DNA from: Roseinatronobacter ekhonensis | GTDB lineage: Bacteria; Pseudomonadota; Alphaproteobacteria; Rhodobacterales; Rhodobacteraceae | DNA length: 64,000 bases | Reading direction: 5' to 3' | NCBI RefSeq assembly: GCF_900499075.1 | Contig: NZ_UIHC01000011.1 | Span: 1-64,000, forward strand | Shown here: piece by piece, positions 27,097 to 33,231 of the stretch | How positions within the stretch are numbered: position 1 is the stretch's first letter | Layout: each line of letters begins with the position of its first letter | Position numbers and translations under genes: made by a program | The notes under the pieces: generated by a model | Seen by the model: only the letters and a program-made list of their open reading frames with translations | Told to the model about the DNA's origin: nothing | The model's database searches: none

Positions 27097-28023
27097 ATGA
27101 CCGACTTCACACGCCGCAGCCTGATCGCCGCCGGGGCCGCCTTGCCCTTGGCAAGCCTTGGCTCCATCAACCCAGCCCGTGCCGAAGCGCCGATGATGGG
27201 TGCCAGTTTTGCCCGCCACCGCCGGTTCATGATTGGCGGGTTCGAGGTGACGACCATTCTGGGCGGCACCACCCCACGCGAAAATCCGCAAGGGATATTC
27301 GGGATGAACGCGACGCCCGAGGAATTCGCCGAAGTCAGCCGCGCGAATTTCCTGTCGACCGACGTGTCGCAGTTCTTCTTTACGCCCACAGTGGTCAATA
27401 CCGGGGCGGAACTGGTGTTGTTCGACACCGGCCTGAATGCAGCGGCAACCACCGAGGCACTGGCCAGCGCGGGCTACACGCCAGAGCAAATCGACATCGT
27501 GGTGCTGACACACATGCATGGCGACCATATTGGCGGCATGATGAACGACGGCGCACCCACCTTTGCCAATGCGCGGTATGTCACCGGGCAAGCGGAATTC
27601 GACCATTGGGCCACGGCGGGCAGTGACGGATTTGACGCCAATGTGCGCCCGATGGCCGATAAGATGACGTTTCTGGGTGACGGGCAAGACATGGTGACGG
27701 GGATAACCGGCATGGCCGCTTTCGGCCATACGCCGGGCCACATGGTGTACCGACTGGAGAGTGAGGGCGCGGGTCTGGTGATCTTTGCAGACCTTGCCAA
27801 CCACCCTGTCTGGTCGTTGGCGCGCCCCGATTGGGAAGTGCGCTTCGATGCCGACAAGGCGCAGGCCGCCGAAAGCCGCCGCCGCGTGCTGGGCATGATT
27901 GCCGCCGACCGTGTTCCGGCGGTGGGCTATCACATGCCCTTCCCCGCGCTGGGATATGTTGATAGCGGCACCGATGGCGCAGAGTTCCATTGGGTGCCCG
28001 AAGCGGGCCAGTTGATGGGCTGA
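27097..28023 (+). CDS. Tat-exported metallo-beta-lactamase-fold hydrolase
   Basis: This 308-residue protein has a twin-arginine signal (TRRSLIAAGAALPLA, cut about residue 29), so it is folded before export to the periplasm. The metal motif is HMHGDH at 139-144, with later ligands in GHTPGH and FADLANH. Family members include lactonases and other hydrolases, and the substrate cannot be assigned. A GAGG ribosome site precedes the ATG. The gap before it (26926-27096) contains a short palindrome TCACGC-GA-GCGTGA near 27027-27040. Confidence 0.85.
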   Translation: MTDFTRRSLIAAGAALPLASLGSINPARAEAPMMGASFARHRRFMIGGFEVTTILGGTTPRENPQGIFGMNATPEEFAEVSRANFLSTDVSQFFFTPTVVNTGAELVLFDTGLNAAATTEALASAGYTPEQIDIVVLTHMHGDHIGGMMNDGAPTFANARYVTGQAEFDHWATAGSDGFDANVRPMADKMTFLGDGQDMVTGITGMAAFGHTPGHMVYRLESEGAGLVIFADLANHPVWSLARPDWEVRFDADKAQAAESRRRVLGMIAADRVPAVGYHMPFPALGYVDSGTDGAEFHWVPEAGQLMG

Positions 28024-28047: not shown

Positions 28048-28124
28048 AGCCCCGGCCCTGAGCCGGGGCCTCTTGGTCAAAGGGTCTTTCGGCCAGAGGC
28101 CCCGGCTCAGGGCCGGGGCGCGCC
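28048..28124. repeat. REP-like palindrome pair, locus 2
   Basis: The same unit as at 8135-8220 appears twice in inverted order. GCCCCGGCCCTGAGCCGG followed by GGCCTCTTGGTCA occupies 28049-28079, and its inverse occupies 28096-28119. Here the tails face inwards. It again separates two convergent genes (the metallo-hydrolase and the MalY-type gene). Confidence 0.75.
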
Positions 28125-28141: not shown

Positions 28142-29314
28142 CTATTGCAAATCACCAAAGGCGCGCTGCAACCGCGCCACGGCATCTTCGATCACCGCAC
28201 GCGGCGCACCAAGATTGAACCGCAGGTAGTTTGCGCCGCCGGTGCCGAATGTCGGGCCATGATTGGCGACGATCTGCGCGTTGTCTTGAACCCTTGAGGT
28301 GAATTCGGCCATGTCCATGCCGGTGCCGGAGAAATCGACCCAAGCCAGATAGGTGGATTGCAACGGCATCGACCGAAGGCCGGGAATGGCATTCACGCCC
28401 GCGTCGAACAGCCTGCGGTTTTCCTCCAGATAGGCCACCAGCGCATCGACCCACGCGGCCCCGTCCGGGGAATAGGCCGCGGTCACGGCATGAAAGCCGA
28501 AGCTGTTGCCGGATATCCCCAAAGCGCCAAGGGTGGCCTTGAACTGCGTGCGCAGGCGGTCGTCAGGGATGATCACCTGCCCGCAATGCGTGCCCGCGAT
28601 GTTGAACGTCTTCGACGGCGCGGTCAGCATGACAACACGGTCCATATGCTCGGGCGCGGCAAGCGGCATGACCGTGTGTTTGTGCCCCGGCATGACGAGA
28701 TCGTGGTGAATTTCGTCCGAGATCAGCAGCAGATCATGCCGCGCGCAGAACTCGGCCACTGCGCGCAACTCGTCCGCCGTCCAGACGCGGCCGCCGGGAT
28801 TGTGCGGCGAACACAGCATGACCATGCGCGTGCTGTCATCGACCAGCTTGTCGGCTGCGTCCAGATCCATCTGGTAGGCACCCGCATCCTCGACCAGCGG
28901 GCATTCCAACACACGGCGTCCGGCCGCGTGGATAACCCGCGCAAAGGCGTGGTAGACTGGTGTGAACAGCATCACCCCGTCGCCCGGCGCGGTCCATGTC
29001 TGCAAGCACAGGCCCACCGCGTTGACCAAGCCATGCGTGGTCGAGATATGCGCGGGGTCCACCTGCCAGCCGTGGCGATGTTCCATCCACCAGCAGATCG
29101 CGGCGCGGTAAGCGGCATCATCTCCGAAATACCCGTAAACCCCGTGGTCGAGCACTTTTTGCAGCGCATCCTGAACCACTTGCGGGGGCCTGAAATCCAT
29201 GTCAGCGACCCACATCGCCAAGCCGTCGTCGGGGGATACGCCGTAAAGCGGCTCCATCATGTCCCACTTGGAACAATGCGTGCCGCGCCGGTCGATGACC
29301 TCGTCGAAATTCAT
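28142..29314 (-). CDS. MalY/PatB-type aminotransferase (putative cystathionine beta-lyase)
   Basis: This PLP enzyme of 390 residues is in the fold-type I class. Family members cleave C-S bonds (cystathionine, cysteine conjugates). Key motifs are the N-terminal WDMMEPLYG, MWVADMDF, cofactor-binding SDEIHHDLV, and the PLP lysine in APSKTFNIAG (about residue 236). The start has GGAGG upstream and overlaps the stop of the XRE regulator by four bases. This ties it translationally to the regulator/membrane-protein cluster, an unusual partnership for a metabolic enzyme. Confidence 0.87.
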   Translation of the reverse strand: MNFDEVIDRRGTHCSKWDMMEPLYGVSPDDGLAMWVADMDFRPPQVVQDALQKVLDHGVYGYFGDDAAYRAAICWWMEHRHGWQVDPAHISTTHGLVNAVGLCLQTWTAPGDGVMLFTPVYHAFARVIHAAGRRVLECPLVEDAGAYQMDLDAADKLVDDSTRMVMLCSPHNPGGRVWTADELRAVAEFCARHDLLLISDEIHHDLVMPGHKHTVMPLAAPEHMDRVVMLTAPSKTFNIAGTHCGQVIIPDDRLRTQFKATLGALGISGNSFGFHAVTAAYSPDGAAWVDALVAYLEENRRLFDAGVNAIPGLRSMPLQSTYLAWVDFSGTGMDMAEFTSRVQDNAQIVANHGPTFGTGGANYLRFNLGAPRAVIEDAVARLQRAFGDLQ

Positions 29315-29562
29315 GTGCTGCCTCCGTTTTCGGCACTCTCAGGCGGAGGCGGGAAAGGGTCAAGCGCGAAAAGCTCTGACACCGGGCAGTCCAAAGCCCG
29401 CGCCAGTTTCAGCGCCAGAACGGTCGAGGGGATGAAGACCCGGTTTTCCACCGTGTTGATCGTCTTGCGGCTGACGCCCGCAGCATTGGCCAGATCGGCC
29501 TGTGTCACACCTCGCAGCGCACGCATGTCTTTCAGACGGTTATAGAGCTGATCTTCACTCAT
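29311..29562 (-). CDS. XRE/YozG-like helix-turn-helix regulator
   Basis: This 83-residue DNA-binding protein is nearly all one HTH domain: MRALRGVTQADLANAAGVSR, with the recognition helix continuing KTINTVEN, then PSTVLALKLARAL. The pattern is that of the small YozG group, which in other bacteria and archaea sits beside membrane proteins of the DUF2178 type. Here it overlaps the third membrane-protein gene by eight bases. It probably regulates its own operon through the GTAAC/GTTAC repeats at 31133-31183. Confidence 0.85.
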   Translation of the reverse strand: MSEDQLYNRLKDMRALRGVTQADLANAAGVSRKTINTVENRVFIPSTVLALKLARALDCPVSELFALDPFPPPPESAENGGST

Positions 29563-30097
29563 CCGCGCCACGTTCCTGCCACCACATGGCTGCGTGATAG
29601 CTGGCTTCGTGCAGCGCAAGCGCTACAAACAGCCCCAGCCCCAACTCTAGTGCCGCAATTTGACCAAGATGCACAAGCGCCAACGCACAGACGCCAAGAA
29701 CCAGCACGCGCTGCGCGATATGGGCGGCATGGCGCTGGGAGTGTCGGTAGCGCTCGTCGCCTGACAGACGAAAAGCTGTGCCCAGACCACCGGTCAGGGC
29801 CAGCACAAGCGTGATCGCAATATAGAGATAGGCCATGTTCAGGGCGGCCCCCTGCGTGCCATCGAAATACCAGAACGCCGTGGCCACCAGAAAGACCAGC
29901 GGAAAGGATGCGGCCCAGGCGTGATTGCGTGCCGTATATTCTTGTAAAGTGCCCTTCGCCAAAAGCTTGCCCCAAAGGCCACCTGCGAACGCCGAGACAA
30001 TCAAAACGACACGCATATCGGCCTGTTTCATAAGCGCGGTAATGGCCGCACCAGTTGCGATAATGGCGCAGGCCGCGATCAGGTAGCGGCGCATCAT
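29555..30097 (-). CDS. Membrane protein of unknown function, cluster member 3
   Basis: This 180-residue protein has five or six hydrophobic helices. A central cytoplasmic-looking loop carries GDERYRHSQRHAA (113-125) and the protein ends in MWWQERGADE. The same two signatures, GDxRYR and MWWQER, occur in the upstream neighbour at equivalent places, so the two are paralogues. The start at 30097 (two consecutive ATGs) overlaps the upstream stop. The DER-type loop recalls the DUF2178 family that travels with YozG regulators. I know no function. Confidence 0.75.
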   Translation of the reverse strand: MMRRYLIAACAIIATGAAITALMKQADMRVVLIVSAFAGGLWGKLLAKGTLQEYTARNHAWAASFPLVFLVATAFWYFDGTQGAALNMAYLYIAITLVLALTGGLGTAFRLSGDERYRHSQRHAAHIAQRVLVLGVCALALVHLGQIAALELGLGLFVALALHEASYHAAMWWQERGADE

Positions 30098-30687
30098 ACC
30101 CCGCCCCCGTCGCGTTCCTGCCACCACATCACGCCCGTAACCGCAACGCCAACGCCCAACAGGACCAATCCCACACCCAGCCAAAGCGGAATGATGATTA
30201 GGCCCGACAGGTCTAGAATGATCATGACAGCGCCTAGAACGGTCAAGGCGTGCAGCCCCGCCTCTCGGGCGCGAATCTGGTTTTGGCGGTAGCGCCCGTC
30301 GCCCTCTGACAGGGCCCGGCTTTTCAGCCCGGGCACAAGAACCCCGGCGCCAACAGTGGTGGCGCAGGTTATTAGCGCCCCCGACCATAGCGCGGGCCAG
30401 ATCGTCGCGCAGAGCAGAAGAACGCTACCACCAAGTGCCGTCAACAGAAGTAAGAAACCGTGGTTTGGTTCCGCTGGTAGCTGTCCTTTGCGCTGTTGCC
30501 ATTGCAGCAGCGCATCGGTCTGAAACAGGATCGCCAGCCCAAGGAGGCAGTGGAACAGGAAGCGATCCGGCAGCGCATTGGCAAAGTGGCCTGCCCAGAT
30601 TTCGGCGGTTACACAAAGGACATAGCACAACAGCGCCAGCGCGATGCTGCGGGTTTCGGGTGAAAGGCGTCTACTGCGCGTGAGCAT
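30094..30687 (-). CDS. Membrane protein of unknown function, cluster member 2
   Basis: This 197-residue protein has about six hydrophobic helices, the loop motif GDGRYRQNQIRA (129-140) and a C-terminal MWWQERDGGGV. It is paralogous to the next gene (member 3). It begins at 30687, about 16 bases after member 1. An early WQQRKG loop is basic. No known enzymatic motif is visible. Confidence 0.72.
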   Translation of the reverse strand: MLTRSRRLSPETRSIALALLCYVLCVTAEIWAGHFANALPDRFLFHCLLGLAILFQTDALLQWQQRKGQLPAEPNHGFLLLLTALGGSVLLLCATIWPALWSGALITCATTVGAGVLVPGLKSRALSEGDGRYRQNQIRAREAGLHALTVLGAVMIILDLSGLIIIPLWLGVGLVLLGVGVAVTGVMWWQERDGGGV

Positions 30688-30703
30688 GTTCAAAGGCCCC
30701 TGA

Positions 30704-31111
30704 TCAATCCGCGTGGCCGCGCAAAACCGATGACAGGAAATGCACCGACGGAGCAATGCCCAGAACCGGCCCCATCCAGTAAAAGGCGACCTCTGCCGAG
30801 ATGCCGCCCGCCAAGACAAAGATGAGCAGCACAAGAAAAACCGCAAGGGTTGCCCAATAGCCAAAGACAAGGCTCGCGTTATGCGCGGACATGTTCATTT
30901 CGTCCCATGCCACTTCTGCTGCCGCAGGATAGGCCAGATGCACGATGAAAGAGAGCGCGGACAAACCGATCATGGTGCCACCGATAATCGTGGCCCGGGT
31001 CAGGCCAGACGGCCCGATGCCGGTAAATCCACTGGCGATGGATGCGCCCACAAGGATGATCGCCGTTGCCATCATGACAAATCGCGTTGCGGTGACGAGG
31101 TTGAAGGACAT
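30704..31111 (-). CDS. Membrane protein of unknown function, cluster member 1
   Basis: This 135-residue protein has four hydrophobic helices and a central loop AWDEMNMSAHNAS (68-80). The loop occupies the place of the GDxRYR loop of members 2 and 3, and distant relationship is possible. The start at 31111 has a near-perfect AAGGAGG. It is the first gene behind the promoter at 31146-31175 and so heads the operon. Confidence 0.75.
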   Translation of the reverse strand: MSFNLVTATRFVMMATAIILVGASIASGFTGIGPSGLTRATIIGGTMIGLSALSFIVHLAYPAAAEVAWDEMNMSAHNASLVFGYWATLAVFLVLLIFVLAGGISAEVAFYWMGPVLGIAPSVHFLSSVLRGHAD

Positions 31112-31132
31112 ATTGGAACCTCCTTGCGAAAA

Positions 31133-31183
31133 GTAACCTAGAGGTAACATACAGCGAGTCGCTTGGTAACGTCAAGGTTACAT
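31133..31183 (-). promoter_or_regulatory. Promoter and putative operator array of the XRE/membrane-protein operon
   Basis: On the minus strand, TTGACG (31170-31175) and TATGTT (31146-31151) are separated by 18 bases, a near-consensus housekeeping promoter. It is overlaid by four GTAAC/GTTAC half-sites at 31133-31137, 31143-31147, 31166-31170 and 31177-31181. The last two form an inverted repeat GTAAC-N6-GTTAC straddling the -35 box. This is a natural binding arrangement for a small dimeric XRE repressor, here inferred to be the protein encoded at 29311-29562. Confidence 0.6.
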
Positions 31184-31231
31184 AGCGCCAAGCCCTTGCC
31201 TGCGTCGCCCGTGCGCGATAAATCGTTATGC

Positions 31232-31753
31232 ATGAGCATTCGACCCATCCTGATCCACCCCGACCCACGGCTGAAAAAGCTGTGCGACCCGGTGTCCGAC
31301 GTGACCTCTGACATCGGCAAGCTGGCAGAGGACATGCTTGAGACGATGTATGACGCGCCGGGTGTGGGGCTGGCCGCGCCTCAGGTGGGGATCACCAAGC
31401 GTATTTTCGTGATGGATTGCGTGAAGGAAGAGGGTGAAGCGCCGCGCCCGATGGTGCTGATCAACCCCGAAATCATCGCTGCCTCGGACGAGGTGAACAC
31501 CTATGAGGAAGGCTGCCTGTCTATCCCCGAGCACTACGGCGAGGTCTCCCGCCCCAAGCTGGTCACGATGCGCTGGATGGGGCTGGATGGCAAAACCCAT
31601 GAGGACGAATTCGACGAGCTGTGGGCCACCTGCGCCCAGCACGAGCTGGACCACCTGAACGGCAAGCTGTTCATCGACCATCTCGGAGCGATCAAGCGGC
31701 AAATGATCACCCGCAAAATGGTGAAGCTGAAGCGCGAGAAGGCCCGCGCGTGA
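31232..31753 (+). CDS. def: Peptide deformylase
   Basis: This metalloenzyme removes the formyl group from nascent proteins. The 173-residue protein has all three motifs intact: GVGLAAPQVG (44-53), EGCLSIP with metal ligand C95, and QHELDHLNG with H137, catalytic E138 and H141. The ATG at 31232 begins MSIRPILIHPD as in the family. It overlaps the second deformylase-like gene by four bases. Confidence 0.95.
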   Translation: MSIRPILIHPDPRLKKLCDPVSDVTSDIGKLAEDMLETMYDAPGVGLAAPQVGITKRIFVMDCVKEEGEAPRPMVLINPEIIAASDEVNTYEEGCLSIPEHYGEVSRPKLVTMRWMGLDGKTHEDEFDELWATCAQHELDHLNGKLFIDHLGAIKRQMITRKMVKLKREKARA

Positions 31754-32244
31754 GCGTTCGGCGCTGCCTGCCCTGGCCAGACCCCATCTTGCGGCGCAAG
31801 GCCGTGGCGGTGGACGAGATAACGGACGACATCCGCGCGATCTGGCGCGATATGATTGATACGATGGAAGCGATGCCCGGTGTCGGCCTTGCCGCGCCGC
31901 AAATCGGGGTTGGGCTGCGGCTGGCTGTGGTCGATGCATCGGACGCGCGCGATCAGGCCGTTCGCATGGCCAACCCAGAAGTGCTGCACGCCAGCGCAGT
32001 TATGCGCGCCCATGACGAGGCCAGCCCAAACCTGCCCGGCATCCATGCACGCATAGAGCGGCCCCGCGCAGTGACGGTGCGGTTTTTGAACGCCGATGGA
32101 GCGCTGGAAGACCGCGAGATGGTCGGGCTATGGGCCACCAGCGTGCAACACCAGATCGACCATCTGGAGGGGCGGATGTTCTTTGATCGCCTGAGCCGGG
32201 TGAAGCGGGACATGTTGTTACGGCGCGCTTTGAAGCAGCGTTAG
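31750..32244 (+). CDS. Peptide-deformylase-like protein with degenerate active site
   Basis: This 164-residue homologue of the preceding gene keeps motif 1 (GVGLAAPQIG, 44-53) but has lost two catalytic elements. EGCLSIP is replaced by EASPNLP, so the metal-ligand Cys becomes S92. HELDH becomes HQIDH, so the general base Glu becomes Q135. Both metal histidines (H134, H138) remain. It starts with GTG inside the def stop and precedes fmt by 81 bases. Ordinary deformylase activity is unlikely. A regulatory, ribosome-binding or altered catalytic role is possible. Confidence 0.85.
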   Translation: MSVRRCLPWPDPILRRKAVAVDEITDDIRAIWRDMIDTMEAMPGVGLAAPQIGVGLRLAVVDASDARDQAVRMANPEVLHASAVMRAHDEASPNLPGIHARIERPRAVTVRFLNADGALEDREMVGLWATSVQHQIDHLEGRMFFDRLSRVKRDMLLRRALKQR

Positions 32245-32287
32245 GCCAGTGGCCTCGGTGGTGCCGGTGAGGGGCCAGCCCCTCACG

Positions 32288-32320
32288 CTCCCCGGAGTAT
32301 TTTTCGCAAGATGAAGGGGG
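32288..32320 (+). repeat. Recurrent motif GAGTATTT-TTC-GCAAGATGAAGG, copy B
   Basis: The core at 32295-32317 differs from copies A and C only in the three variable bases. Its last bases (GAAGGGGG) form the likely Shine-Dalgarno of fmt, whose ATG is at 32326. The in-motif ATG at 32311 is in frame with fmt but is less plausible as start. Confidence 0.75.
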
Positions 32321-32325
32321 ACGCG

Positions 32326-33231
32326 ATGCGGATTATTTTTATGGGAACGCCAGAGTTTTCCGTGGCGGCTTTGGACGCGGTCCATGCCGCGCATGACGTG
32401 GTCTGCGTGTATACTCAGCCGCCCCGCCCCGCCGGGCGTGGCAAAAAGGACCGTCCCTCGCCGGTGCAGGCGCGGGCCGAAGATCTGGGGCTGATGGTGC
32501 GCCATCCCGTCAGTCTGAAAGGGGCCGAGGCGCAGGCGGAGTTTGCGGCGTTGCAGGCAGATGTGGCGGTCGTGGTCGCCTATGGGCTGATCTTGCCGCA
32601 AGCCGTGCTGGACGCGCCACGCCACGGGTGCCTGAACATTCACGCCAGCCTGTTGCCGCGTTGGCGCGGGGCCGCGCCCATCCAACGCGCGATCATGGCG
32701 GGCGATGCCGAAACGGGTGTTTGCATCATGCAGATGGAAGCGGGGCTGGATACCGGGCCGGTGCTGCTGCGCGACACGACGCCGATCGGGGAAAACGACA
32801 CGACCGCCCACCTGCATGACCGCTTGTCGCAAATGGGCGCGCGGCTGATTGCAAAGGCATTGGGGCATTTGGACACGCTGGGGCGAGAACCACAGGCTGA
32901 AGATGGCGTGACCTATGCCGCCAAGATCGACAAGTCCGAGGCGCACATTGACTGGACCCGACCCGCACAGGCGGTCGCGCGGCAGATTCGGGCGCTTTCG
33001 CCTTTTCCCGGCGCGTGGTGTGACAGCCCGGCGGGGCGGCTGAAACTGCTGGATGCGCGGGCCGTTGACGGGGATGGCGCACCCGGTGAGGTGCTGGACG
33101 GGCTGACCATTGCCTGCGGCACGGGCGCAGTATCGGTGCTGAGCGTGCAGCGCGAAGGCAAACGCGCCGGTGATGCTGCGGCGTTTCTGAACGGGCACCG
33201 TTTTGCGCCGGGGACGGTGCTGGGCGCTTAG
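32326..33231 (+). CDS. fmt: Methionyl-tRNA formyltransferase
   Basis: The enzyme formylates initiator Met-tRNA, the counterpart of deformylase. This 301-residue protein has the N-terminal [10 protein letters not shown], the catalytic [17 protein letters not shown] and GLDTGP (Asn/His/Asp triad), and a C-terminal OB-like domain. The ATG at 32326 matches the family N terminus and has GGGGG upstream. It is convergent with the MFS gene, overlapping by four bases. Confidence 0.95.

Follow-up and report, generated by a model that had tools for sequence, protein, structure and literature searches.

Five minus-strand genes that overlap or nearly touch in Roseinatronobacter ekhonensis raise the question of whether they form a single system and, if not, which of them make up the functional unit. 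They lie in a stretch of 64,000 nt (assembly GCF_900499075.1, contig NZ_UIHC01000011.1, positions 1 to 64,000), here called the window, and encode three membrane proteins (MP1, MP2, and MP3), a small XRE regulator, and a PatB-family C-S lyase. An earlier note on this DNA read all five as one self-contained module. That interpretation is right in spirit, in that the locus reads as a membrane-linked switch, and wrong in extent. The conserved unit is one membrane protein with a conserved D-E pair in a loop (the DE loop), the XRE regulator, and a double operator; PatB is not core, and MP2 and MP3 are optional extra copies. This module is apparently a widespread, undescribed bacterial control switch. 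We put at roughly 60% the probability that it is an autoregulated membrane-sensor/repressor switch, free of any phosphorelay, which works like CylR1/CylR2 of Enterococcus faecalis. The parts of the locus, in order of transcription and with the number of predicted transmembrane (TM) helices, are:

31166..31181, minus strand: operator site 1, GTAACCTTGACGTTAC, 16 bp, with the -35-like TTGACG inside it (31170-31175)
31133..31148, minus strand: operator site 2, GTTACCTCTAGGTTAC, 16 bp, overlapping the -10-like TATGTT (31146-31151)
31119..31125, minus strand: ribosome-binding site of MP1, AAGGAGG, from sequence
30704..31111, minus strand: MP1, 135 amino acids, four TM helices, N-in/C-in, core membrane protein of the module
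30094..30687, minus strand: MP2, 197 amino acids, six TM helices, GDGRYR loop and MWWQER tail, extra DE-loop membrane protein
29555..30097, minus strand: MP3, 180 amino acids, six TM helices, GDERYR loop and MWWQER tail, paralogue of MP2
29311..29562, minus strand: XRE/HTH_3 regulator, 83 amino acids, CylR2-like, predicted autorepressor
29312..29375, minus strand: promoter-like block of patB, GCTTTTNGNGCTTGNNC..., doubling as coding DNA for the C-terminal tail of the XRE
28142..29314, minus strand: PatB-family pyridoxal-phosphate C-S lyase, 390 amino acids, neighbour or optional cargo, non-core

The arrangement of the five genes is as the earlier note described, with a 16-nt gap between MP1 and MP2 followed by overlaps of 4 nt (MP2/MP3), 8 nt (MP3/XRE), and 4 nt (XRE/PatB), the last two matching the overlaps it gave for the regulator and enzyme genes. 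The operator palindromes are a feature absent from that note.

These palindromes are part of the conserved unit. In loci identified through their proteins, the DNA before MP1 shows two conserved 16-bp elements, the second being a further GTAAC-N6-GTTAC palindrome about one promoter spacer past site 1, over the -10 region. The eight MP1-family loci identified in this way come from eight genera, and every one of them has both sites. In the window they cover the -35 and -10 of the sole promoter seen before the operon, with 18 nt between TTGACG and TATGTT, and shuffles of the window are expected to contain none. The pattern GTWACYNNNNNGTTAC occurs twice in the 3.9-Mb host genome, both times at the MP1 promoter, and the predicted target of the XRE is therefore its own promoter. 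A wider regulon was considered and rejected, as single-site matches elsewhere in relatives are no commoner than those of a reversed-pattern control.

The double operator also serves as a search string that finds the module with no knowledge of its proteins, which is the main new result. A blind search of ~85,000 genomes with this DNA pattern alone, ignoring protein content, gave 74 loci (55 proteobacterial, 19 from Bacteroidetes). An XRE of the same family (E ~1e-24 to 1e-36) lies downstream in 48 of the 48 proteobacterial loci with at least 585 bp of downstream sequence; the remaining seven have at most 511 bp. Since the letters TTGA and GTAAC were imposed by the search, the apparent invariance of site 1 is partly built in, and the unbiased evidence for this site comes from its unimposed positions (C6 98%, C11 95%, and A-1 80%) and from the loci found by protein. 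The gene before the XRE almost always encodes a four-TM protein with the conserved D-E pair, and in a few loci (L056, L081, and L084) a six-TM version. The stop of the membrane-protein gene overlaps the XRE start in 42 of 44 measurable loci, by exactly 4 nt in 31 of these. Hosts include Rhodobacteraceae, Hyphomonadaceae and other Caulobacterales, Parvularculaceae, Sphingomonas, Rhizobiaceae, Maritalea, and two gammaproteobacterial metagenome-assembled genomes. The earlier note had named two outcomes that would speak against its proposal, absence of the cluster from relatives and assignment of the membrane proteins to unrelated known families. Regulator and membrane protein are instead conserved well beyond the family, and none of the three membrane proteins reaches a Pfam cut-off.

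The 19 Bacteroidetes matches were left out of this set, as they lack the XRE and were judged convergent. Eight of these loci were opened; in seven the site fronts an SRPBCC and ArsR-type operon on the other strand, and the eighth was truncated. In L055, L063, L072, L074, L087, L090, and L122 the site has the form GTAACTTTGAAGTTAC-N12-GTAACTTNTGAGTTACGCA, with a fixed 12-nt spacer, directly before that operon. Apparently the double palindrome is here the operator of another, unrelated family of regulators, reached by convergence.

The protein that reads the proteobacterial operator is very likely the XRE. Module XREs are 63–83 amino acids long and have no ligand-binding domain. The closest characterised relative of the XRE in the window is CylR2 (phmmer E=5e-10), with a profile match (E=1.5e-22) over 63 of 66 residues, so that the homology spans the whole small helix-turn-helix protein. 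Module XREs with the recognition helix SRKTI are paired with the GTAAC...GTTAC operator. In gene pairs of this kind whose XRE has SRQTV, a palindrome of roughly TGTAAAGNNNNCTTGACA takes the same promoter position, again with TTGAC built in. Operator and recognition helix change together, which supports the XRE as the operator-binding protein. A conserved operator at its own promoter that varies with the recognition helix is what is expected of an autorepressed operon, and from the sequences autorepression by the XRE is very likely.

A small autoregulating XRE behind a membrane protein also recalls the toxin-first order of HigBA-type loci, and the pair could be read as a membrane-active toxin with an autorepressing antitoxin. 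The XRE has weak antitoxin-family matches and MP3 a very weak match to the PADLOC '2TM effector' (E=0.009), but no known toxin or antitoxin family is reached above cut-off, as membership of type II would require. The module is moreover chromosomal and syntenic in several genera, where membrane copies and metabolic cargo are gained and lost. An extension for neutralising a toxin is also lacking in the XRE, whose tail reuses the patB promoter region. A toxin-antitoxin pair is therefore regarded as improbable.

The three membrane proteins appear related through the DE loop. The earlier note had reported a GDxRYR loop and an MWWQER tail in two of them; these are found as EGDGRYRQNQ in MP2 and SGDERYRHSQ in MP3, with MWWQER in both, and the two proteins are homologous in their C-terminal halves (BLASTP, 76 residues, E=2e-6). 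It had also placed a WDEMN loop of MP1 at the same position. Plain BLASTP sees no likeness between MP1 and MP3, but hhalign of MP1 with the MP2/MP3 family (E=4.9e-5, probability 68%) aligns this loop with GDERYR, and the aligned columns are exactly the DE loop and the next TM helix. These alignments support the relationship of all three. The suggestion that they are DUF2178-like holds only as far as sub-threshold Pfam matches among module proteins, which include DUF6442, DUF3796, and DUF2178. No Pfam or NCBIfam cut-off is reached by MP1, MP2, or MP3: MP1 matches DUF6442 at 13.3 bits against a cut-off of 25, MP2 has no Pfam match, and MP3 matches TgpA_N alone, under cut-off. Other module members give weak E-values to the three DUF families, none shown to reach the gathering cut-off. 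A below-cut-off match of MP1 to MRAP (1.1e-5) was judged spurious, as this is a eukaryotic single-TM family and 32 residues matched.

Within the MP1 family D70 is invariant and R10, E71, and W86 are near-invariant. The AlphaFold model of MP1 is a confident four-helix fold (pLDDT 91.7), for which a fold search of the PDB found nothing at E<=0.001; the model of MP3 is weak (pLDDT 62). Lysine and arginine are concentrated at the N-terminus (1.8 per sequence), the TM2-TM3 loop (2.4), and the C-terminus (1.4) of the MP1 family, and the two remaining loops have 0.2 and 0.4. By this charge pattern the N-terminus, DE loop, and C-terminus should be on the cytoplasmic side. With the DE loop in the cytoplasm, D70, R10, and E71 would lie where the XRE could reach them, and conserved polar residues on this predicted face suggest a cytoplasmic partner. 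We infer contact of these residues with the XRE.

The six-TM proteins have a narrower distribution. A DNA-pattern scan of genome contigs and a plasmid tblastn found no relatives of MP2 or MP3, and a search with MP2 in 198 family genomes returned MP2 itself and MP3, nothing else. A six-TM profile was run against 395 family genomes, and its convincing matches were confined to the window and a single further genome, which carries two six-TM genes in tandem, the arrangement of Jhaorihella thermophila (L081). Six-TM DE-loop proteins of the MP2/MP3 type were found solely inside the module. A weak MP1 match in G349 proved to be an ABC-transporter permease and was set aside as a false positive.

Could the membrane proteins act without touching the regulator? 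In a tolerance or immunity operon they would shield the membrane, as SdpI does, and the XRE would be a simple repressor, itself responding to a small ligand in the cytoplasm or to the level of a protein. The multiplication of membrane proteins, with 0, 1, or 2 extra six-TM copies in congeners, suits a dosage role, and SMR and CPBP genes are found within the same operon. However, the XRE is small and has no domain with which to bind a ligand, its neighbour is nearly always an overlapping DE-loop membrane protein, and the cytoplasmic face of the conserved residues suggests a partner there. We consider this explanation rather unlikely.

The place of PatB is clarified by relatives of the host. The enzyme scores 401.6 bits for TIGR04350 against a cut-off of 340, which bears out the C-S lyase-type assignment of the earlier note, and is predicted to have cystathionine/cysteine beta-lyase activity. 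The patB gene is present in 36 of 37 congeners but preceded by the module in only four of the 37, making PatB a pre-existing neighbour and therefore not core. The module takes the forms MP1-XRE (G199), MP1-6TM-XRE (G222), 6TM-XRE at a contig edge (G206), and, in the window, MP1-6TM-6TM-XRE. In 24 of 30 patB loci examined def is directly beside patB, an adjacency also seen in congeners without the module. Module-free congeners have a promoter-like block, GCTTTTNGNGCTTG..., ~50 nt before patB, and in module-bearing species, as the window and loci L152-L179 show, it has turned into coding DNA for the XRE's C-terminal tail, which is unusual (...FALDP...). It seems that patB retains its own promoter within the 3' end of the XRE gene. 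As the module abuts patB with this block kept, patB is at most part-time cargo.

Upstream of patB in L158 and L166 (G204 and G219) a glycine-rich, tail-fibre-like gene stands at the expected place of def, and the DNA there resembles remnants of the XRE tail (FALDP..., FTLDA...DSAANGGKP). These may be decayed copies of the module.

These data also bear on a dedicated C-S lyase operon, in which the membrane proteins would either sense a sulfur compound on which PatB acts or carry it out of the cell. MP1-XRE-PatB occurs in at least 11 double-operator loci from several genera, at the def locus where seen, and XRE and PatB overlap by 4 nt in the window. Against this are the distribution of patB relative to the module, its adjacency to def, and the promoter-like block that it keeps. 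Elsewhere, the MP-XRE unit fronts alpha/beta-hydrolases, SMR exporters, or nothing. This explanation is judged highly improbable.

The other cargo is varied, and the attached genes are of a detoxification type. In 13 loci there is a membrane-anchored alpha/beta-hydrolase, whose gene often overlaps that of the XRE and has a squalene/phytoene-synthase-like gene behind it. An SMR exporter precedes MP1 or follows the XRE in five (L086, L076, L116, L108, and L053), and a CPBP-type protease is present in one (Sphingomonas soli). The SMR and CPBP cargo fit, without proving, a signal in the form of a membrane-active chemical or peptide. Control of a lantibiotic or toxin operon would call for genes of peptide or toxin biosynthesis beside the module, and none were noted in the loci examined.

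For the membrane-sensor/repressor switch the following sequence is proposed. A dimer of the XRE would bind both GTAAC-N6-GTTAC operators over the -35 and -10 and repress the operon. Once something perturbs or enters the membrane, MP1 may hold or inactivate the XRE, which would free the promoter and increase production of everything on the transcript, from the membrane protein or proteins and the XRE to any cargo. MP2 and MP3 may broaden or tune the input or themselves act as tolerance proteins. As the switch lies between def and patB, with 4 nt shared by the XRE and patB genes, read-through would give it partial control of the C-S lyase. The stimulus for the module is probably an agent of some kind that acts on the cell membrane. 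The peptide- or envelope-sensing role put forward in the earlier note has a precedent in CylR1/CylR2, through the relationship of the XREs.

Several points weigh against this mechanism. Both the contact between membrane protein and XRE and the signal are what we infer. The links of MP1 to MP2 and MP3 are weak at the single-sequence level, and in the window it is MP3, not MP1, that adjoins the XRE gene. The -10 element TATGTT is weak by consensus. Many copies of the module carry no cargo, and cargo therefore fails to identify the signal.

Small XRE/membrane-protein pairs are common across bacteria and archaea. XRE + DUF2178 gene pairs are present on, for example, Haladaptatus plasmids, and Bacillus YoaS (DUF2975) and YozG form a pair of a small membrane protein and a small XRE. 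The present module shares with these a small YozG-type XRE beside a small membrane protein, and weak DUF2178/DUF3796 matches, but its proteins are not shown to reach those Pfam cut-offs. A full-text literature search for XRE with DUF2178 or DUF3796, YozG, and DUF2975 found nothing describing the present system, and no operator or function for the XRE + DUF2178 or YoaS/YozG pairs in the literature searched. SdpI of Bacillus subtilis is a membrane immunity protein that sequesters the repressor SdpR. Here the likeness is in the proposed logic alone, a membrane protein inactivating the autorepressor of its own operon, whereas SdpR is of the ArsR family and the module repressor is an XRE.

CylR1/CylR2 is the two-component regulator of the E. 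faecalis cytolysin (Haas 2002, Rumpel 2004 as cited in PMC3709268). Induction requires CylR1, a suspected membrane protein with three TM helices, in a way not yet understood, and CylR2 acts with it in sensing a lantibiotic subunit (PMC3709268). In both systems a membrane protein and a repressor of the XRE type, very small in size, belong to a single transcription unit; no phosphorelay is involved, and the repressor acts at a promoter. On sequence, the likeness is that of the XRE to CylR2; the membrane partners are set side by side by TM count, with four or six helices here against three predicted for CylR1. CylR2 controls a divergent toxin operon, whereas here two sites lie over the -35 and -10 of the module itself, and the cargo differs. 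By analogy the module may work like CylR1/CylR2, with no claim that it belongs to that system. Even for CylR1/CylR2 the route from membrane protein to repressor is unknown (PMC3709268). The present module offers an identified and nearly invariant operator, whose pair of sites has no second occurrence in the host genome, and natural variants by the dozen among Alphaproteobacteria, which makes the question of how membrane protein and repressor communicate directly testable.

A broader proposal is offered more tentatively. The modules may form a distinct class of membrane switches without a phosphorelay, widespread in Alphaproteobacteria. In these a DE-loop membrane protein would counteract a CylR2-like repressor directly, at a double operator that hardly varies and is fused to the promoter elements. 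Each would be a portable cassette for responses to membrane insult (SMR efflux, hydrolases, C-S lyase), and added six-TM DE-loop proteins would widen its range of inputs.

The surroundings of the module in the window have further features. Two peptide deformylase genes in succession and then fmt lie at 31163-33231 on the plus strand, and in G483 (L026) three deformylase-like genes occupy the same place. On the other side, a metallo-beta-lactamase-fold hydrolase (27097-28023, plus strand) with a twin-arginine-like signal, TRRSLIAAGAAL, and the motif HMHGDHIGG is convergent with patB. Between the two, at 28049-28118, is a large inverted repeat with arms of ~24 nt, CCCCGGCCCTGAGCCGGGGCCTCT ... 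GAGGCCCCGGCTCAGGGCCGGGG, a putative terminator or REP-like element.

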